Origin: Natronorubrum daqingense
GTDB lineage: Archaea; Halobacteriota; Halobacteria; Halobacteriales; Natrialbaceae
Direction of reading: 5' to 3'
DNA length: 64,000 nt
Assembly: GCF_001971705.1 (NCBI RefSeq)
Contig: NZ_CP019327.1
Location: 2,480,001-2,544,000 of the forward strand
Positions within the stretch are counted from its first letter, which is position 1; each line of letters starts with the position of its first letter. Under the pieces are notes generated by a model, which saw nothing but the letters and a program-made list of their open reading frames with translations, had not been told where the DNA came from and made no database searches. Both the position numbers and the translations under genes were made by a program. Positions 8,291 to 35,969 of this stretch are shown in pieces.

Positions 8291-8875
8291 ATGGGTACTG
8301 AGAACAGTTCACGAGCGTCGATCGTTGTGGGCGCGTTAGCAGGCATAGCGGCGTGGATACTGGGCTACCTCGTCACCTACGCCGGTGCGATCGGCGAAAT
8401 CCGGTCGGACGAGCAAGCCGAAGCGTTGGAGCTAGCGGTCGAAGAGTCGGTCGACCTCGAAATGGTCGGCCTGTTGTTCTACAACGCACACAACGTCGAC
8501 GCCGACGTGCCCCAGTACAGCGTATTGCAAGCACTCGAAGAGAATCACAATTTCGTTCTCGCCGACGGGGGGAGTACCCTTCTCCTGTACGTCGTTCCGG
8601 TGGTTTCCCTGGTCGTTGCTGGCGCGCTGGTTGCCTCGTACACCGCGACAGACCTCGAGGCGTCGACCGACGCCGCGCTCGCTGGCGCGGCAATCGTCGT
8701 CGGCTACTTTCCGCTCGTCGTCCTCGGGCTGTTCGTTTTCACCGTCGACCCGGGCGAAGGTGCGATGCGTCCCGATCCACTGTTCGCAGTCGCAATCGCC
8801 GGACTGGTGTATCCCCTCGTATTTGGCTCCCTCGGCGGCGTACTCGCTGGCTTCGCTTCGAATGTACTGGAGTAA
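8291..8875 (+). CDS. Four-TM haloarchaeal membrane protein of unknown function
   Basis: The 194-aa protein has predicted membrane segments at about residues 11-33, 97-118, 126-150 and 163-190. A hydrophilic loop of about 60 residues lies between the first two. No catalytic or transport motif was recognised. It resembles small conserved haloarchaeal membrane proteins (possibly the DUF7978 group, from memory). The start ATG at 8291 is preceded by an AT-rich region around 8240-8265 that could hold a promoter. Confidence 0.7.
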   Translation: MGTENSSRASIVVGALAGIAAWILGYLVTYAGAIGEIRSDEQAEALELAVEESVDLEMVGLLFYNAHNVDADVPQYSVLQALEENHNFVLADGGSTLLLYVVPVVSLVVAGALVASYTATDLEASTDAALAGAAIVVGYFPLVVLGLFVFTVDPGEGAMRPDPLFAVAIAGLVYPLVFGSLGGVLAGFASNVLE

Positions 8876-9514
8876 CATCGACATCGGTCGCTGGGAAGAT
8901 CGCTGCCGTTCGTTGGCACTCAGAAGCCACCGCCAAAACGATTCGTCCGTTGGGACGCGAACGGAGAGCGATTCCCGGACACCGTTTCGTCGTCCGTGGT
9001 CGGATACCGGACGGAGATCGACCGATTCGAACGGTCGTCGGCACGCATCCCGAGGGACTCCGTCCGTCCTTGGGACCCCCTCGAATGCGCCCCGACGAGC
9101 CCACCCCGTTCAGCAACTCCCGCGACTGGTACGGCCGTCGACTCGAGTTCGACAGTACCGCTGTGGGCTCGAGTCACCTCGATCCGCCTCGATTCGACCC
9201 TCGACTAGTCCGGATCTCGAGCGGAACACACGTTTCATCGCTTTCGAAGCCATTAGTTGGGCCTCTTCGAGTCGCCCGCACCCACCGATGGTCGCTGCGA
9301 GGCGTTCCCCTCTGCGATCGAGCGGCGAAAATCACGCTCTCGGGCGGCGTCGTTCTCGTGAAATTCTCGCCATAAAAGGCAACGACGTTCGCTGTCGCCA
9401 CAAGTATAATGATTATCCCAACAGTTGCTAAACTCGCAACTGGATTATTGTTGTGAGATATGTAAACTTTGAACGGTTCCTGGGTTTAATACAGAACTCT
9501 CTCGATGACTCTTT
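8876..9514. other. Gene-poor stretch
   Basis: Open frames exist on both strands, but they are Arg/Ser-rich, lack any domain pattern and look like chance frames of GC-rich DNA. A TATA-like TTTAATA sits at 9485-9491, upstream of the secreted acidic protein gene. Nothing else was recognised. Confidence 0.5.
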
Positions 9515-9548
9515 CGTCTTCGAAGATGGCAACCCGCCACCGAAGACG
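9515..9548 (+). promoter_or_regulatory. 5'-leader hairpin before the acidic repeat protein gene
   Basis: Perfect 8-nt arms CGTCTTCG (9515-9522) and CGAAGACG (9541-9548) flank an 18-nt loop and end 8 nt before the start codon at 9557. With the TATA-like element near 9485 the transcript would have a structured leader of about 45 nt, which is unusual in haloarchaea, where leaderless mRNAs dominate. Confidence 0.4.
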
Positions 9549-9556
9549 GTAACCAC

Positions 9557-11002
9557 ATGTCACGGATAACACGAAACCAGGTATCTGCACTGATCGTTGC
9601 TGTCCTTATGGTGTCAGCCGCATTCGCTGGCGGCGCATCGGTCGTAGGGGCTCAAGACAACGCTGACGAAGAGGTCGACGAAATTAACGCGCTCATCGCA
9701 GACATCAACGAACAACTCGAGAACGTAGACGACGTCGAAACGGTCGACGAGGTCGACGATGATACTGCCGACGAGGTCCAAGATGACATCTTCACACAAG
9801 TTGTCGCTGAGATAAACACGCAATCTCAGGACATGCTCGGTGAAGACATCGCAGACGATGTCGACACCCCTGAAGAAGCACAAGAAGAAGCTGACGAGAT
9901 CGAAGACGAGTACGGCATTGCTGCTCAAGAAGCAGTCGACGGACTGAACAACGCCGCGGACAGCGTTGAGGAGATCCAGGAGATCGCCGAACAAGTCGAA
10001 GACGCGGACGATGACGAGGCTGACGACGAAGACGCGGATGACGACGAAGCAGATGACGACGAGGCAGACGATGACGACGCGGATGACGACGAGGCAGACG
10101 ATGACGACGCGGATGACGACGAGGCAGACGATGACGACGCGGATGACGACGAGGCAGACGATGACGACGCGGATGACGACGAGGCAGACGATGACGACGC
10201 GGATGACGACGAAGCAGACGATGACGAAGCAGACGATGACGAAGCAGACGATGACGAAGCAGATGACGACGGCGCGGATGACGACGAGGCAGATGACGAC
10301 GAGGCAGATGACGACGAAGCCGGTGACGATGTGGCCGACGACATCAACGCGCTCATCGACGATATCAACGAACAACTCGAGAACGTAGACGACGTCGAAA
10401 CGGTCGACGAAGTCGACGATGACACTGCGGACGAAGTTCAGGACGACATCTTCACGCAGGTCGTTGACGAGATAAACACGCAATCTCAGGACATGCTCGG
10501 TGAAGACATCGCAGACGATGTCGACACCCCTGAAGAAGCACAAGAAGAAGCTGACGAGATCGAAGAGGAGTACGGCGCTGCTGCGCAAGAAGCAGTTGAC
10601 GGACTGAACAACGCCGCGGATAGCGTTGAGGAGATCCAGGAACTCGCCGAACAAGTCGACGACGAAGCAGATGACGACGAAGCAGACGATGACGACGCGG
10701 ATGACGACGAAGCAGATGACGACGAAGCCGACGACGATGAGGCTGACGACGAAGCCGATGAAGGTGACGAACTCGATGACGTTGAAGAGCTCATCGTCGA
10801 AGAGCTGAACATCGAAGAACTCACCGTCGAAGAGCTGAACATTGAGGAACTCAACATCGAAGAACTCACCATCGAGGAGCTGAACATTGAGGAGTTGAAC
10901 GTTGACGAACTCCCTCTCGATGATGACGATGTCGACTCTGACGAGGACGACGAGAACGACAAGGTCGACGACGATGACGACGACACCGACGCAGACTGCT
11001 GA
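9557..11002 (+). CDS. Secreted hyperacidic repeat protein with a duplicated helical module
   Basis: The 481-aa protein begins with a Sec-type signal (hydrophobic stretch at residues 10-30, cut near VGAQ33). A helical module of about 105 residues (about 40-145) contains DIFTQVVAEINTQSQDMLGE and recurs at about 260-365, exactly 220 residues later. Between and after the copies are long DDDEADDDDAD repeats. Near the C-terminus (about 410-450) lies a run of five-residue units of the form (I/V)EELN. No enzyme motif is present. A single copy of the same module occurs in the Tat lipoprotein at 11719. A surface or extracellular scaffold, or a cation-binding protein, is possible. I do not recognise the family. 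Confidence 0.75.
   Translation: MSRITRNQVSALIVAVLMVSAAFAGGASVVGAQDNADEEVDEINALIADINEQLENVDDVETVDEVDDDTADEVQDDIFTQVVAEINTQSQDMLGEDIADDVDTPEEAQEEADEIEDEYGIAAQEAVDGLNNAADSVEEIQEIAEQVEDADDDEADDEDADDDEADDDEADDDDADDDEADDDDADDDEADDDDADDDEADDDDADDDEADDDDADDDEADDDEADDDEADDDEADDDGADDDEADDDEADDDEAGDDVADDINALIDDINEQLENVDDVETVDEVDDDTADEVQDDIFTQVVDEINTQSQDMLGEDIADDVDTPEEAQEEADEIEEEYGAAAQEAVDGLNNAADSVEEIQELAEQVDDEADDDEADDDDADDDEADDDEADDDEADDEADEGDELDDVEELIVEELNIEELTVEELNIEELNIEELTIEELNIEELNVDELPLDDDDVDSDEDDENDKVDDDDDDTDADC
9674..9970 (+). repeat. Module copy 1 of intragenic duplication
   Basis: Aligns without gaps to copy 2 exactly 660 nt downstream (10334-10630). The DNA is near-identical; for example 9841-9900 and 10501-10560 match at every base. 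This implies recent duplication or gene conversion. Confidence 0.85.
10051..10230 (+). repeat. 30-bp in-frame tandem repeat encoding Asp/Glu/Ala
   Basis: A 30-bp unit starts at 10081, 10111, 10141 and 10171 with four exact copies. A copy at 10051 differs at its first base, and a diverged copy starts at 10201. Each unit encodes ten residues, so length changes keep the frame. There are no spacers, so it is a coding minisatellite. Confidence 0.9.
10334..10630 (+). repeat. Module copy 2 of intragenic duplication
   Basis: This is the second copy of the 9674-9970 segment at an offset of 660 nt. It differs at scattered, mostly third-codon positions. Confidence 0.85.
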
Positions 11003-11015
11003 GTAACTACTCAGC
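10998..11015 (+). terminator. Palindrome over the stop codon of the acidic repeat protein gene
   Basis: GCTGAGTA-AC-TACTCAGC is a perfect palindrome spanning the TGA stop (11000-11002). In RNA it would fold as a six-pair stem with a six-base loop. A CTCTTTTG run follows at about 11043. Either a terminator or an mRNA end structure. Confidence 0.35.
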
Positions 11016-11718
11016 GCGAATCGGTCAGTACGATCAATACTTCTCTTTTGTACACTGCTCGCCGTTAGCGACCGGTTGTAACCATTCCAAAAGGGAGTCA
11101 CGCGTCGACCGAAGTGGCGAACGACGTGAGCAACGCAGCCGACACGTGCCCCGTCCGTTCTCACCAACGGGTATTCTTATCGACTCGAGCGAGTCGTTGT
11201 TATCCTCCGCACAGAAGCGCGAAACGACCCGACCGTACTCTGTCGGGGACGGTCTTCGCGTAGACCTGTGTCGAGAATCATCACAGCCGACCACAGCCGA
11301 AATTCATCAAACGAGACCGTCGAAGGGACAGTAGTCGGTTGTACTCCACCTCTACTGAGACCGCCACTGACCCGAAGTGCTTCGTCGACTACTCTCCACA
11401 TCACTCGCGTCGGGGTCGTATGACCCGTACGGTATAGACCAACCGTGTACCACCGTGACGGTGCGTATCCCATCGTGGAGGACGAAGCACCTATGTCCAT
11501 TCCTTTCAGAAACTCCACTTTCGTTTCGACGCCGATAGGGGTGTCCACCTCGAGGCGAAATTACACTCGATGTCCGCCGCTGAGAACGGGTTTTTGCTGA
11601 CCAAAAGGTACCTTTGAGTGCAATCTATGGGTGCTCGGCCCCGTCCGAACTGTTTCGAATACCTACACAGTTTATAATAATTATAATAAATGATGGTGGT
11701 TGTGTGTTAGCAGTTGTG
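11016..11718. other. Gene-poor stretch
   Basis: Only low-complexity frames without domain character are seen. An AT-rich segment at 11669-11695 (TTTATAATAATTATAATAAA-like) lies just upstream of the Tat lipoprotein gene and is likely its promoter region. Confidence 0.5.
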
Positions 11719-30939: not shown

Positions 30940-31548
30940 ATGGCGACAGAAGATCAACCAGATCCAGACGCCCCTGCTGGCGGCGCAGACGTGGGCGCAC
31001 AGTTGTTCGGCACGTGGGATATCGGCGAAATCGCGTACGAAGATCCCTCGACCGAACGCTACATCACGGTTACGCCAGTCGCTCACACCGCCGGTCGACA
31101 CGCCGGTAAACAGTTCAAGAAGTCCCAGGTCTCCATCGTCGAGCGCTTCATCAACCGACTGATGCAGACCGAGGAGAACACGGGGAAGAAACAACAGACG
31201 CTCAATCACGTCCGCGATGCGTTCGAACTCATCAACGAGCGGACCGACGAAAACCCGATTCAGGTACTTGTCACCGCCGTCGAGAACGCCGCTCCGCGTG
31301 AGGAGACCGTCCGCCTGAAATACGGTGGTATCTCCGTTCCGAAAGCCGTCGACGTCGCACCTCAGCGACGAGTCGATCAGGCGCTCAAGTTCCTCGCAGA
31401 GGGTGTCTACAACGACTCGTTCAAAACGCCGACGCCGGCTGCAGAGGCAATCGCGAGTCAGCTCATCGGTGCCTCTAACTACGACGTCCAGACGTACGCT
31501 GTGAGTCAGAAAGAAGAAAAAGAGCGCGTTGCAGCAGCAGCACGCTAA
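30940..31548 (+). CDS. rps7: Ribosomal protein uS7
   Basis: The 202-aa small-subunit head protein has VERFINRLMQTEENTGKKQ, NPIQVLVTAVENAAPREE and GGISVPKAVDVAPQRRVDQ, typical of archaeal uS7, plus a haloarchaeal acidic N-terminal extension. It is in an operon with rps12 (2-nt gap). In related genomes aEF-2 usually follows closely; here about 4.4 kb with four other genes intervene. Confidence 0.97.
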   Translation: MATEDQPDPDAPAGGADVGAQLFGTWDIGEIAYEDPSTERYITVTPVAHTAGRHAGKQFKKSQVSIVERFINRLMQTEENTGKKQQTLNHVRDAFELINERTDENPIQVLVTAVENAAPREETVRLKYGGISVPKAVDVAPQRRVDQALKFLAEGVYNDSFKTPTPAAEAIASQLIGASNYDVQTYAVSQKEEKERVAAAAR

Positions 31549-31709: not shown

Positions 31710-31730
31710 AATTTTTCAGAAAAATTTATT
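31710..31730 (+). promoter_or_regulatory. Promoter with a 17-bp inverted repeat upstream of the 41-aa peptide gene
   Basis: AATTTTT (31710-31716) and AAAAATT (31720-31726) form an inverted repeat with a 3-nt centre overlapping a TATA-like AAATTTATT (31722-31730), about 30 nt before the peptide ATG. It could be an operator. Confidence 0.4.
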
Positions 31731-31759
31731 CCGGCTCGGGACGATGTATCTGTTGCACC

Positions 31760-31885
31760 ATGTCCGAACTTACCACACACTTAAAGAACCACCCACGAAT
31801 GATCGGTATTCTGTTCGCAATATTGCTCGCCCTCTCACAGGCGGGAACCGCTGCTGCGAACATGGAATTTTACCCGGGACCGTAA
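31760..31885 (+). CDS. 41-aa hydrophobic peptide (DUF7503-like)
   Basis: The frame encodes MSELTTHLKNHPRMIGILF, then a hydrophobic Ala/Leu stretch ending SQAGTAAANMEFYPGP. The pattern (short polar start, HPRM, one membrane/signal-like helix, SQAG, small acidic/Gly-Pro tail) matches very short haloarchaeal proteins that I recall as DUF7503. It may be a membrane peptide, a secreted peptide precursor or a signal. A promoter sits at the right distance. It ends 8 nt from the convergent CHAT protein stop, so the two genes form a tail-to-tail pair. Confidence 0.7.
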   Translation: MSELTTHLKNHPRMIGILFAILLALSQAGTAAANMEFYPGP

Positions 31886-31892
31886 CTGAGTG

Positions 31893-33977
31893 CTAGAGTC
31901 GCTCAGTTACGTCGTCACTCCAGCGTATTTCATCGTCGACCAGAAGCGGTGTCTCTTTCAATCGGAGAAAGTCCTCGAGTTGTTGGGGTGTCGCGGAGAC
32001 CGATTCGATTCGTTTAGGGTGCAAGTAGTACGACGTGATAGGCTCTAAATGGGATGTAACGACACTCCCCTTTTTCGTCCCAGCGCCTTCGTAGGTTTCG
32101 AGTGAAACGGTGAATTCGTCAGCACTGACGGGATCGGTTATCCCGTCGTGAAACACGCACAGCGCTGGTACGCCGGTCGTTGGCTGAGCGATCGTCGTCG
32201 TTCCGTCGCCGACGATCTGATACTGGCCCGCGACGGTGCTTTCCTTTCGTGCGAGATTGAGTGCAGCGTAGAGTGAGAATCCGTGGTTCAAGAGGCGTGC
32301 GACAACGCCGCCGACGTTGATGGCTCCGTTGTTGACGACATCGCCCCGGGTCGTGATGCCACCGACACTCCCCGATTCGATCAAGTGGATCCCCTGTTCG
32401 TGGGATTGACAGGCGTTGAGGATGAACGCTTTTACACCGACTTCGTCGACGGTCTCTGCGCTCAGGACGCCATCTGTACACTGGAACCCACCGGTGTCGA
32501 TGTGTCCGATATAGTGAAAGAAGTCACCGTTGCTCGAGAGGATCTCCTCGAGTTCAGCCACGGTGACGTCGTAGGAGACGGTCACGTCGAAGGGAAGTTC
32601 CTCGTGCGTTCCGTAGACGCCGTTTACGGTCTCGAGTTCGTCTGACATCCGCTCGTCGGTACAGACGACGTCGATCTCGATTGGATCCGCTCCAGGTCGT
32701 CGATCGACGTTGTTGTAGAATGCCGAGAGTGGTGTCGTACTTCGGAGCGTACTCTCGCTTGCGCGCTGCCACACCTGCTGTACTGTCTTCCCCGTCGTCG
32801 GAATACTCTCACTCGAGGACTCGTTTCCACTACGTTCGTGGCGGTTTTCGGTAGTACCCGACCGAGTGAAGTCAGCAACTGCTCGTCGCTGTTGGGTCGA
32901 CGTAGATTGGTGTGTGGTGTTGCTATCGGTCGTCTGCACGATTGCGAGGTCGTTCGCGATAAACGGGAGGAACGGGGCCCGATCTGGAGTTGGACGACAG
33001 TGGACCTCGAGGCGCCACTCGGGAATGTGGTCTGCGATCACCGAATGCGGGACCTCGAGGTAGCGTTCGAGTTGCACCGCCAGTGGTTCGTCGTAGAGTG
33101 CGTCGATATCGAACGGGAGATGGGATTCGACGGCCGGCCGCTCGGCGAGGGGCAGCGGTGTAATTCCCGCCGTCCGAACGATGCAATCGAGGAAGAACAC
33201 GTGCTTCAACACCCGCCCGACCGTTCGTTCGAAGGATTCCCCTGTATCGAGTGGATACTCGAATCCGCGGTCGGTAGTGAGTTGTGGGCTGGGACCTGGG
33301 ACGACTGATGCGCCGAGATAGTATGCCAGTGAAACCACTGGGAACAGCTGTCGGTGTGTCGGCTGTATCGTAATTTCCACGCCCGTGTCCGGTGTGTCGA
33401 GCGAGTCTGGAATCGCTACTTCGTCACCGATCTTCAGTGAGGGCGGATGTCCACGAAGGGTTGGATACGATCGATCGGCCTCGAGCGTCTTCAGTGCGGA
33501 CCCGAACGCGGAGACGGCCGTCATGACGTCCGTCGGCGCTGTCGTCGTCGTGATCTGTTGGGCCGGGCGCGTGTGGTACGACCGGGCACCGACGACGACG
33601 CGCGTTTCGTCGCCAAAGGCGATGTGTGTTTGATCCGCGTCGAAGTAGACGTACGCACTCCCCGTTGCCTCGAGGTAGATTTTCAGGGAGGCGGAGAGTT
33701 CGAGCGTGTACTGTCCGGCCGGCATCGACGTCGGGTTCGGCGGTTTCGCCTCGGCGACCATCGCGCCACTCTCGTCTCGGATGTAGACGTGCTTGTTCGT
33801 CGGGAGCGTGATCGTGTTCGTCGATATCTCGACCGCTGCATCGACTGGATACTCGAGACGAGCAGTGCGTACGGGTGTTGGCGACACCGTCGTCTGTGTT
33901 ATGAGTCGATAGCGATGTCGCTCGATCGGATCGATAATGACGATTCCATCGTTGGTCCGTTTGAACTTCGGTTTCAT
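31893..33977 (-). CDS. CHAT-domain (caspase/separase-like) protein
   Basis: The 694-aa protein ends in a caspase-fold CHAT domain: His492 in FFHYIGHID and Cys523 in FILNACQSHEQG form the expected Cys-His dyad 31 residues apart, followed by GITTRGDVVNNGAINVGGVVARLL. The long N-terminal part (about 1-330) is beta-rich and may sense a ligand; residues 345-410 form a low-complexity Ser/Thr-rich linker. CHAT proteases act in immunity and in regulated cleavage of partners; whether this one is active is an inference. It lies 66 nt downstream of the RecA-like gene on the same strand, so they probably form one operon. Confidence 0.78.
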   Translation of the reverse strand: MKPKFKRTNDGIVIIDPIERHRYRLITQTTVSPTPVRTARLEYPVDAAVEISTNTITLPTNKHVYIRDESGAMVAEAKPPNPTSMPAGQYTLELSASLKIYLEATGSAYVYFDADQTHIAFGDETRVVVGARSYHTRPAQQITTTTAPTDVMTAVSAFGSALKTLEADRSYPTLRGHPPSLKIGDEVAIPDSLDTPDTGVEITIQPTHRQLFPVVSLAYYLGASVVPGPSPQLTTDRGFEYPLDTGESFERTVGRVLKHVFFLDCIVRTAGITPLPLAERPAVESHLPFDIDALYDEPLAVQLERYLEVPHSVIADHIPEWRLEVHCRPTPDRAPFLPFIANDLAIVQTTDSNTTHQSTSTQQRRAVADFTRSGTTENRHERSGNESSSESIPTTGKTVQQVWQRASESTLRSTTPLSAFYNNVDRRPGADPIEIDVVCTDERMSDELETVNGVYGTHEELPFDVTVSYDVTVAELEEILSSNGDFFHYIGHIDTGGFQCTDGVLSAETVDEVGVKAFILNACQSHEQGIHLIESGSVGGITTRGDVVNNGAINVGGVVARLLNHGFSLYAALNLARKESTVAGQYQIVGDGTTTIAQPTTGVPALCVFHDGITDPVSADEFTVSLETYEGAGTKKGSVVTSHLEPITSYYLHPKRIESVSATPQQLEDFLRLKETPLLVDDEIRWSDDVTERL

Positions 33978-34043
33978 GGCGAGGACGATTCGGGCTGGCG
34001 TCGTGCTAGTGCACAGTAGACGACTCGGGCGGTGGGTCGGCGA

Positions 34044-34763
34044 CTACTCGCGCGAGATCCAACCGGAACTGCGGTTACCCTCGTTGATCGACCACTGTTC
34101 TTGGAACTCCCCGTCTCGTTCGCGAAGTTCGACGACGATGTCGAAGAGGGGTTCGAGAAGGGAGACGGCGTCTGCGTCGCGCTCGAGTGGGAGGTGATAG
34201 TGGATCATGCCGCTTGAATCCTGTACTTTGCCGGTGGTCAGATGCACGAACTTGAAAACACGTTCGACGCCGTATTCCTCGAGCAGTGGCACCAGTGAGT
34301 CGACACCGACGCGGAGTGCTGCGGGTTCGAATCCGTCGTTGCTCGCCTCGAGCGTGTCGACTGCCCTCGATATTTCGACGGCGAGGTCGGTGAGTGACGT
34401 CGTTCTCGCGGGTGTTTGCTCGAGGGCTGTCGACGAGCGTTCCACGAACGTGGACCCGTTGTTGTCGGTACTGACGCTCCGGGCGTGTGTTTCGTAGCTG
34501 ATGAGTTCGAGGGGGTCGGACGACAGTTGCGCTGCGTCGAGAACGTCAGTGGTTCGGTACGGTCGACCGAGGGTAGATACCAGCACACGATGGCGTGAGC
34601 GGGCAGCCGATTGGCCCAGGAGACGGTGACAAATATCTCGGCGGTAGTCAGTGTCGACGGCACCGACGACGAGGACGCTCGCACCCGAGCGCTTCAGTTG
34701 TGACAACGTTTTGGTAAACTGCCCCTCGCTGGTCGTCTCACCCCAGCTGTCTCGCGAACTCAT
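34044..34763 (-). CDS. RecA/KaiC-like protein with degenerate P-loop (DUF7504-like)
   Basis: The 239-aa protein has an N-terminal SGASVLVVGAVDTDYRRDIC segment where a Walker A would be, but the GxxxxGK(S/T) is lost. GRPYRTTDVLDAAQ and a later LRVGVDSLVPLLEEYG, RVFKFVHLTTG order fits the KaiC-like fold of haloarchaeal proteins I recall as DUF7504. It is likely a non-hydrolysing sensor or regulator. The start at 34763 (MSSRDSWGET) follows a TATA region with the palindrome AACATTAAATGTT (34791-34803). It probably forms an operon with the CHAT gene. Confidence 0.65.
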   Translation of the reverse strand: MSSRDSWGETTSEGQFTKTLSQLKRSGASVLVVGAVDTDYRRDICHRLLGQSAARSRHRVLVSTLGRPYRTTDVLDAAQLSSDPLELISYETHARSVSTDNNGSTFVERSSTALEQTPARTTSLTDLAVEISRAVDTLEASNDGFEPAALRVGVDSLVPLLEEYGVERVFKFVHLTTGKVQDSSGMIHYHLPLERDADAVSLLEPLFDIVVELRERDGEFQEQWSINEGNRSSGWISRE

Positions 34764-34790
34764 CGATATATTCCACACATCGACGGGTAA

Positions 34791-34803
34791 AACATTAAAT
34801 GTT
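34791..34803 (-). promoter_or_regulatory. Palindromic TATA region before the RecA-like/CHAT operon
   Basis: AACATT-A-AATGTT is a perfect inverted repeat, 28 nt before the start codon, at the place expected for a leaderless haloarchaeal promoter. Confidence 0.45.
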
Positions 34804-34969: not shown

Positions 34970-35725
34970 TTACTCTCCCGTAGCTCCACCGTCATCGACG
35001 TATGCGCGAGTCGCGTCGACGAGCATCTGTCGATACGTACTCGAGTCCGGATTCGCGACGAGTTCGCGAAAGCGGCGTTTGAACCCCTCGAAGTCGACGC
35101 TCGGCGCGTCCATCGCGGCAGCGTACGCGAGGTCGTACAGTCGGTGGTCGTCCTCGACGAGGTCGTGACGTTCGGCCAGTGCGAGCGCGAACGCGGCGTT
35201 GACGGCGGTGATATCCGGATCTGCACTCGCAGAGCGGCGCGTGAGTCCTGACCGAGACGGCGTCTCGGGTCGGTCGGCGACGGCCATCGCGAGGCTGGAC
35301 TCGAGGAACGACAGGAGTTTTTCGCCGGGACCGACGGTGAGCGTGATATCGTCGGCGTAGATGTCCTTCATGTGATTTGCGATCTGGTAGCAGTGCGAGA
35401 GCTTTCGGCGCTCGACGCTCTTGCCGGCCAGTCCGAGGTAGAGAACCTCTTCTGTCGATTGGGTGTGGGAAGGATGGGCCTGCTCGTACCTGGCCATATG
35501 GGAGAACTCGTGAAGGGCGAGTTCGCGAGCCATCGCGCTCGAGGCGGCTTGTTTCGAGATGTTCAGGACGTGTCGGTCGTCGTAGTGTCCGGCCCAGGTT
35601 CGTTCGTCCGGGTCGTCTCGGAGGTGGACGTGGACGGGCAACGAGAGATCGTGTTCCGTTTCGAAGAGGTCACGGGCCCCGAGGAACGGAGAAGTCGGCC
35701 CTGCACCCTGTACGCGGAGATCCAT
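34970..35725 (-). CDS. Haloarchaeal HEFSH-motif putative metalloprotein (DUF5781-like)
   Basis: The protein (251 aa from ATG 35725) contains MARELALHEFSHMARYEQAH, a zinc-metallopeptidase-like HExxH helix, preceded by VHVHLRDDPDERTWAG. It resembles a conserved haloarchaeal family encoded next to aEF-2 that I recall as DUF5781. Substrate and activity are unknown. The start MDLRVQGAGP is preferred over an in-frame ATG five codons upstream (35740). It is divergent from aEF-2. Confidence 0.72.
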   Translation of the reverse strand: MDLRVQGAGPTSPFLGARDLFETEHDLSLPVHVHLRDDPDERTWAGHYDDRHVLNISKQAASSAMARELALHEFSHMARYEQAHPSHTQSTEEVLYLGLAGKSVERRKLSHCYQIANHMKDIYADDITLTVGPGEKLLSFLESSLAMAVADRPETPSRSGLTRRSASADPDITAVNAAFALALAERHDLVEDDHRLYDLAYAAAMDAPSVDFEGFKRRFRELVANPDSSTYRQMLVDATRAYVDDGGATGE

Positions 35726-35969
35726 GGGTATCTGTATCACGTCCTGCCGCCCTATGTCTTTTGCGCTCGTCCTCTCTGATTACTGATGGGTAATCGGTCG
35801 TTCCTCGAGGTTGTATTCACGCGTCCGAGTCCCGCCGTTTTGTCTTTACAGGCTGCATGTTATTCACTCACTCAGATTGGAAATTATGGCGTAACGTGCG
35901 CGAATCCGACGGATTCGAGCGACGACGAAACACTACCCTTTTGACCCCGCTACCGATAATAGGTGGTAT

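Follow-up and report, generated by a model that had tools for sequence, protein, structure and literature searches.

Covariation of a micropeptide tail with a convergently encoded caspase-like protein suggests a dedicated peptide–protein pair in haloarchaea

Introduction

What links a hydrophobic peptide of 41 residues to a caspase-like protein of 694 residues whose gene ends only 7 nucleotides away from its own? The question is raised by a stretch of 64,000 nucleotides from the haloarchaeon Natronorubrum daqingense (assembly GCF_001971705.1, contig NZ_CP019327.1, positions 2,480,001 to 2,544,000), here called the window, in which both genes, together with a third one, sit between rps7 (ending at position 31548) and the gene of a DUF5781 protein (34970-35740) that adjoins aEF-2. 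The peptide belongs to the family DUF7503 (PF24335; 31760..31885, forward strand), the larger protein is CHAT-like with a predicted clan CD fold (31893..33977, reverse strand) and the third gene, located upstream of the latter on the same strand, encodes a DUF7504 protein of 239 residues (PF24336; 34044..34763). All three open reading frames (ORFs) are found where a first-pass annotation of the locus had placed them, and the family names that it had given proved correct, with scores of 69.9 bits for DUF7503 and 185 bits for DUF7504 (cut-off 27 in both cases). The tail-to-tail arrangement of the peptide and CHAT genes that it described also stands, with the distance between the stop codons corrected from 8 to 7 nucleotides. 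Here we present comparative evidence that the short and variable C-terminal tail of the peptide co-evolves with the CHAT protein, which leads us to propose, with good confidence, that this tail would act as its cognate ligand.

Results

The distribution of both families illustrates how closely they are tied to each other. Among 119 relatives, 102 genomes contain DUF7503 and 106 contain the CHAT protein, with both present in 102 cases, CHAT only in 4, the peptide only in none and neither in 13 (Fisher test, 3e-14), and all 13 genomes without CHAT are also devoid of the peptide. The two genes converge in 126 of 126 cases where a peptide has a listed CHAT nearby and, in an extended set that combines the named genomes with further relatives, in all 203 distinct pairs, where their separation mostly ranges from a few to about 100 nucleotides. 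As judged from this distribution, the peptide and CHAT form an obligate pair in a fixed convergent layout. A co-occurrence of all three families, as had initially been suggested, is therefore retained for the peptide and CHAT, whose dependence is strict, and abandoned for DUF7504, which is found in about half of the cases. Within the Natrialbaceae, the site observed in the window (rps7 to DUF5781/aEF-2) is common to 17 of 17 named loci, whereas in other families the pair resides at other genomic sites including plasmids. The shared site led us to reject an assignment of the pair as cargo of a mobile element, despite the plasmid copies in other genera. Across the class, DUF7503 was detected in 250 out of 292 Halobacteria genomes. 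Three CHAT genes are present in the genome that contains the window, belonging to the pair in the window, to a second pair with the tail ANGGTIS and to a third arrangement, where CHAT faces another micro-ORF ending in STYGGP.

The peptide is composed of two parts with distinct patterns of conservation. In the window, a leader with the sequence MSELTTHLKNHPRM-IGILFAILLALSQAGTAAA, delineated by the Pfam match and the family alignment, precedes the tail NMEFYPGP (31859..31882, forward strand), the predicted mature ligand, which follows a signal-peptidase-like A-A-A site. The leader conforms to the consensus [HN]P[RK]M-x-G-[VA]-L-F-T-hydrophobic-[ST]-Q-A-G-[TSN]-[VA]-x-A, where almost every member of DUF7503 has P-[RK] ahead of the hydrophobic segment, and the excess of changes at third codon positions reflects purifying selection. 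The tail, in turn, comprises 6-10 residues (about 8), differs in almost every genome with 93 distinct tails in 100 sequences, and its nucleotide changes are evenly spread over codon positions. It is close to devoid of charge, with 33 charged residues out of 1624 compared to 25% in CHAT proteins, and in 159 of 203 cases it terminates exactly with Gly-Pro-stop, whereas a second tail class ends with NGG-x-[TIV]-x. We have considered whether the Gly-Pro end could be the by-product of a DNA constraint at convergent stop codons and rejected this possibility, since each of the four Gly and four Pro codons occurs at such ends, which also persist at intergenic gaps exceeding 30 nucleotides (60 cases). 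The use of all codons argues that the constraint acts on the peptide, whose tail, on this comparative evidence, is not free to drift. The residues preceding the tail fit the signal peptidase rule, with Val or Ala at position -3 of the site in 192 and Ala at position -1 in 191 of the 203 peptides.

The CHAT protein of the window does not match any entry in Pfam, NCBIfam or PADLOC and it does not reach the curated cut-off of the CHAT family PF12770, which weakly matches 22 of 60 homologues (best E 7e-5). Its structure predicted by AlphaFold2, with a predicted local distance difference test score (pLDDT) of 85.8 and a predicted template modelling score of 0.87, consists of a beta-rich N-terminal domain and a caspase fold and contains no helical repeats. 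Residues ~320-640 of this model match structures of SAVED-CHAT (E 4.9e-7), separase, gingipain and TPR-CHAT, with structural Z-scores of 17.2 for gingipain, 14.6 for separase and 13.5 for TPR-CHAT. The model and the matches of homologues to PF12770 thus uphold the initial CHAT/caspase assignment and place the 694-residue protein among the caspase-fold proteins (clan CD, CHAT-like). Within its catalytic domain, which is defined by structural matches and encompasses residues ~430-600 (32178..32690, reverse strand), the dyad formed by His492 (32502..32504) and Cys523 (32409..32411) had been described as intact. Neither residue varies among the 203 homologues, and the same holds for His488, Gly491 and Asn521, resulting in the context H-x-x-G-H ... 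N-x-C-x-S. Cys500 shows the same invariance (203/203) although it is located outside the dyad, and the motif RSYPTLRGHPP in the N-terminal part of the protein (residues 167-179, consensus PERSYPT[L]RGHPP; 33441..33479, reverse strand) is conserved to the same degree as the catalytic residues. The N-terminal region (residues 1-325) was modelled with a pLDDT of 89 when folded alone. Its assignment to a known sensor fold was rejected, since it shows weak matches to beta-supersandwich structures only (Z at most 8.8, Foldseek E at best 0.0035). No signal or membrane segment is evident in the sequence of the protein.

The relationship between both proteins becomes apparent in their covariation. The class of the tail follows the CHAT tree, with 12 changes compared to 39.7 in shuffled data. 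At the level of individual positions, covariation was quantified as mutual information with average-product correction (MI-APC) and compared to a null distribution of columns simulated on the CHAT tree with a matched number of changes. Tail columns top the MI-APC list. The best score was reached in 0 of 300 simulations for five of eight tail positions, in 0.7% and 1.3% of simulations for two further ones and in 6.7% for tail position -2, where -1 denotes the last residue. The 21 leader columns are near the null on the same tree (two at 1/60) and the residues surrounding the HPR sequence of the leader do not stand out. From -1 to -8, the respective partners in CHAT are residues 174, 654, 134, 273, 638, 643 or 641, 640 and 605, with those at 638-654 (32016..32066, reverse strand) pairing with tail positions -2 and -5 to -8, and with residue 174 contained in the near-invariant SYPT[L]RGHPP segment. 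When the tree was divided into two halves without overlap, the pairs (-6,643), (-7,640), (-5,638), (-1,174) and (-8,605) were placed within the top 8 of ~580 in each of them. Since the covariation is mostly found outside the catalytic region 430-600, it would fit the recognition of a ligand better than the cleavage of a substrate.

The residues found at covarying positions provide a plausible picture of such recognition. At tail position -4, an aromatic residue is accompanied by a non-aromatic residue 273 (Thr in the window; 33159..33161, reverse strand) in 43 of 44 cases, whereas small residues coincide with Tyr273 and Gln with Phe273. Gly at tail -2 is found with Pro, Ser or Ala at position 654 and bulkier residues with Gly654, and Pro at tail -1 coincides with Leu or Met174 in 157 of 159 cases and never with Phe, His, Asn, Tyr or Gln. 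As read from the alignments, the contents of these classes are size-complementary and sterically sensible. The tests of residue classes were chosen after inspection of the data, whereas the test against the simulated null was fixed independently of them. The suggestion in the first-pass annotation that the peptide and the protease act together is supported by this tail-specific covariation, in conjunction with the strict dependence at genome level and the convergence in all 203 pairs.

If the tail was the working part of the peptide, CHAT proteins that are not accompanied by DUF7503 should still face a micro-ORF carrying such a tail. This prediction held in the sequences, where 9 of 11 convergent micro-ORFs within 20 nucleotides of the stop codon of such CHAT genes end with Gly-Pro, compared to a background of 12 in 2852 small frames (0.42%; binomial 2e-20). 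The leaders of these nine micro-ORFs are of different kinds, with two showing a divergent DUF7503-like sequence (L313, L314), two belonging to another hydrophobic type (L296, L297) and the remainder being soluble (L298, L309, L315-L317). Among the latter, a family found in L298 (5020-5142), L315, L316 and L317, which is also represented once in the genome that contains the window, ends with [AS]KR[VI]STY[GR]GP and converges with CHAT at a distance of 4-6 nucleotides. The dibasic KR sequence preceding its tail might be a processing site.

Our survey has also revealed CHAT genes in other arrangements. In the Natrialbaceae relatives L071, L072, L073, L074, L075, L080 and L083 (about 8300-11200), a second tandem CHAT gene is located beyond the peptide, which has no peptide of its own and is absent from the lineage of the window, and in L308 (572-7806) three CHAT genes are arranged in tandem on the same strand without any peptide partner. 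Distant homologues covering residues ~84-617 of the model were found in four genomes of another family of the phylum (L291 2113-4600, L292 2387-4454). In two of these four genomes, CHAT converges with a conserved frame of 137-151 residues (MALYEGASLIYSIRPP...), and no micropeptide was visible.

The DUF7504 protein had initially been described as a KaiC-like regulator with a lost Walker A motif. GK[ST] is indeed absent at the respective position in all 34 aligned members, whereas a kinship to KaiC is only hinted at, with KaiC structures constituting its best but weak matches in the PDB (E 0.083) and an hhalign probability below 1. Its proposed role as a fixed third partner is not sustained. Since only 92 of the 203 pairs show DUF7504 upstream of CHAT, and since this family is present in 8 of the 13 CHAT-less genomes and occurs in several copies per genome, it is an accessory, presumably regulatory protein of some lineages outside the core of the system.

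Of the palindromic AT-rich promoters noted previously, the inverted repeat AATTTTTCAGAAAAATT (31710..31726), which overlaps with the peptide gene promoter, could be confirmed in the window and lacks conservation in relatives, which instead have a common AT-rich TATA block. A role of the palindromes as conserved operators was consequently rejected. A perfect 10-base pair inverted repeat (CGTAACTGAG...CTCAGTTACG, 31881-31911) covers both convergent stop codons with a calculated RNA folding energy of -21 kcal/mol (z -2.1). It was dismissed as a conserved intergenic terminator hairpin, since its occurrence is restricted to the window and the 95% identical relative. The neighbouring DUF5781 protein (PF19093, 438.8 bits), which contains a HEFSH zinc-protease-like motif, holds its position beside the three genes in relatives.

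Discussion

Since CHAT has co-evolved with the variable tail alone, our results are best described by a signal or regulator that is recognized by its receptor. That the product of the micro-gene would be the precursor of a short ligand peptide and the product of the convergent gene its dedicated caspase-like receptor-protease is in our view a marginally better than even proposition. In such a mechanism, the conserved hydrophobic leader would target the peptide to the membrane or take it across, where signal peptidase would cut after A/V-x-A to release exactly the co-evolving segment. The freed tail would then re-enter cells and bind to a putative pocket of CHAT, whose N-terminal part would be formed by residues 134, 171-174 and 273 and its C-terminal part by residues 605-654, with the invariant residues Arg169, Arg175, His177 and Arg268 as potential anchors of the free carboxylate. 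Binding would switch the His492/Cys523 protease, thus following the logic of peptide pheromones with intracellular receptors, except that a protease would replace the transcription factor. If the tail is accepted as cognate ligand, its export, trimming and re-entry are moderately favoured, because co-evolution is confined to the charge-free segment that follows the putative cleavage site. The presence of several CHAT-peptide pairs with different tails in the same genome is as expected for insulated signal-receptor pairs. In its most extended form, this proposal describes an archaeal system of the peptide-pheromone type, where secreted octapeptide-like signals, which are diverse across the class and of which most haloarchaea would carry between one and several insulated copies, would each be read via their free and mostly Gly-Pro-containing C-terminal end by a dedicated intracellular caspase-like receptor, a view that we advance tentatively and rate at somewhat less than an even chance.

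Several observations weigh against this proposal. Unlike a typical Sec signal, the leader frequently lacks a net positive charge in its N-terminal region, which is neutral on average, and the paired micro-ORFs of L298, L309 and L315-L317 have no hydrophobic leader, which implies that export cannot be general. About 20 other CHAT paralogues lacking DUF7503 show no visible peptide partner, the signal linking tail -2 to residue 654 is based on few changes (7 and 4) and the rule for residue 273 gave a mixed result when applied out-of-sample to the nine micro-ORFs ending with Gly-Pro. Some of these properties would be accommodated if the peptide was instead an intracellular or membrane-tethered regulator, whose cytosolic tail docks onto CHAT as an inhibitor, activator or anchor, in a manner resembling securins or antitoxins. 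Loss of the peptide or a breach of the membrane would in this case free the protease, and the leader, which differs between peptides, would determine whether a common docking tail resides at the membrane or in the cytosol. Such docking would equally lead to tail-specific covariation, it is consistent with a CHAT protein lacking an evident signal or membrane segment and with the soluble leaders, and the neutral N-terminal region of the hydrophobic ones would be compatible with an N-out/C-in topology. Separase, a structural neighbour of CHAT, is itself controlled by an inhibitory partner. However, a docked regulator assigns no role to the A/V-x-A sequence, which in more than 93% of cases occupies exactly positions -3/-1 ahead of the co-evolving segment, the scarcity of charges in the tails is what would be expected of a segment crossing the membrane, and the leader columns do not covary with CHAT. 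We thus consider this alternative unlikely, albeit worth serious attention.

It appears considerably less probable that the peptide is a substrate, which CHAT would cut for example after the conserved Arg or Lys of HPR|M, so that a membrane-active fragment is released for altruistic death or defence. Gingipain R and separase, which show the nearest clan CD folds, both cleave after Arg, and the P-[RK] sequence of the peptide is placed before its hydrophobic segment, leaving a processing by the CHAT protease possible. The covariation, however, concerns the extreme C-terminal tail and mostly residues outside the catalytic region, with the surroundings of HPR being unremarkable, and the soluble partners ending with Gly-Pro contain no membrane segment. 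The related idea of an abortive-infection device, which had been put forward for the locus, has found no positive support, with 0 matches in PADLOC-DB 2.0.0 for all four proteins, no phage match found for the system, a stable site beside ribosomal genes in the Natrialbaceae loci and a near-universal presence of DUF7503 in the class. For lack of PADLOC and phage matches, we have also rejected its classification as a known defence system. Finally, it is hardly conceivable that the genes are merely linked neighbours with a freely drifting tail, as the even spread of its changes over codon positions might suggest, in light of a pair kept at many genomic sites and on plasmids, the Gly-Pro end and lack of charge in tails, the presence of the same end behind other leaders and a covariation that exceeds the tree-based null and replicates.

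Collectively, a dedicated interaction between peptide and protein is strongly supported by the comparative data, in what appears to be a new kind of pair. Almost no components of archaeal quorum sensing are known (PMC12240190), and our literature search has found no pair of an archaeal peptide signal and its receptor, no paper on DUF7503 or DUF7504 and none combining CHAT, haloarchaea, KaiC and caspase. Caspase-like activity has been reported in haloarchaea, whereas archaea were said to lack homologues of the respective genes (PMC3615174). If our proposal was true, it would describe the first system of the peptide-pheromone type in archaea. The class-wide occurrence of the gene pair, which includes the genetically tractable Haloferax volcanii, opens both archaeal peptide signalling and caspase-like activity to testing. 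In Haloferax relatives, the tail of the DUF7503 peptide reads GNTxVIYGP. The disk-forming signal of this organism, a secreted density signal of 3 kDa or less and of unknown identity, was reported to be unaffected by proteinase K and autoclaving (PMC12240190) and is for this reason not evidence for a peptide. Although H. volcanii also has DUF7503, this resistant signal counts neither for nor against the pair.

With respect to the receptor, the closest relationships are found within clan CD, where gingipains and separase are the best structural neighbours by Z-score (17 and 14, respectively), although these share only 10-17% identity with CHAT and have no known peptide ligand that is read by its C-terminus. 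SAVED-CHAT and TPR-CHAT/Csx29 (Craspase) similarly combine a caspase/CHAT fold and a His-Cys dyad with an attached sensor region. In contrast to these proteins, the haloarchaeal CHAT has no CRISPR partner and no recognized SAVED or TPR region, and it is instead accompanied by a convergent micropeptide. With respect to the pair as a whole, the best comparison is offered by the peptide signalling systems of Firmicutes, namely RRNPP, SHP-Rgg and arbitrium (PMC10075063, PMC3679016, PMC9232636, PMC10518010). As in RRNPP systems, the genes of a propeptide and its proposed intracellular receptor are adjacent (here convergent in 203/203 pairs, with a genome table of 102/4/0/13), the short C-terminal end of the propeptide is its variable and partner-specific part, several pairs coexist in a genome and some propeptides are leaderless. 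Unlike in RRNPP systems, the putative receptor is a caspase-fold protease instead of a TPR transcription factor (usually containing an additional helix-turn-helix motif), and the pair, which is known from comparative sequence evidence, is archaeal, with a conserved C-terminal Gly-Pro and a leader that is itself strongly conserved. Judged by this comparison, the CHAT-peptide pair is an analogue of RRNPP systems and not a member of them, and it suggests a kind of control where proteins of the caspase family would be governed by genome-encoded C-terminal tails.

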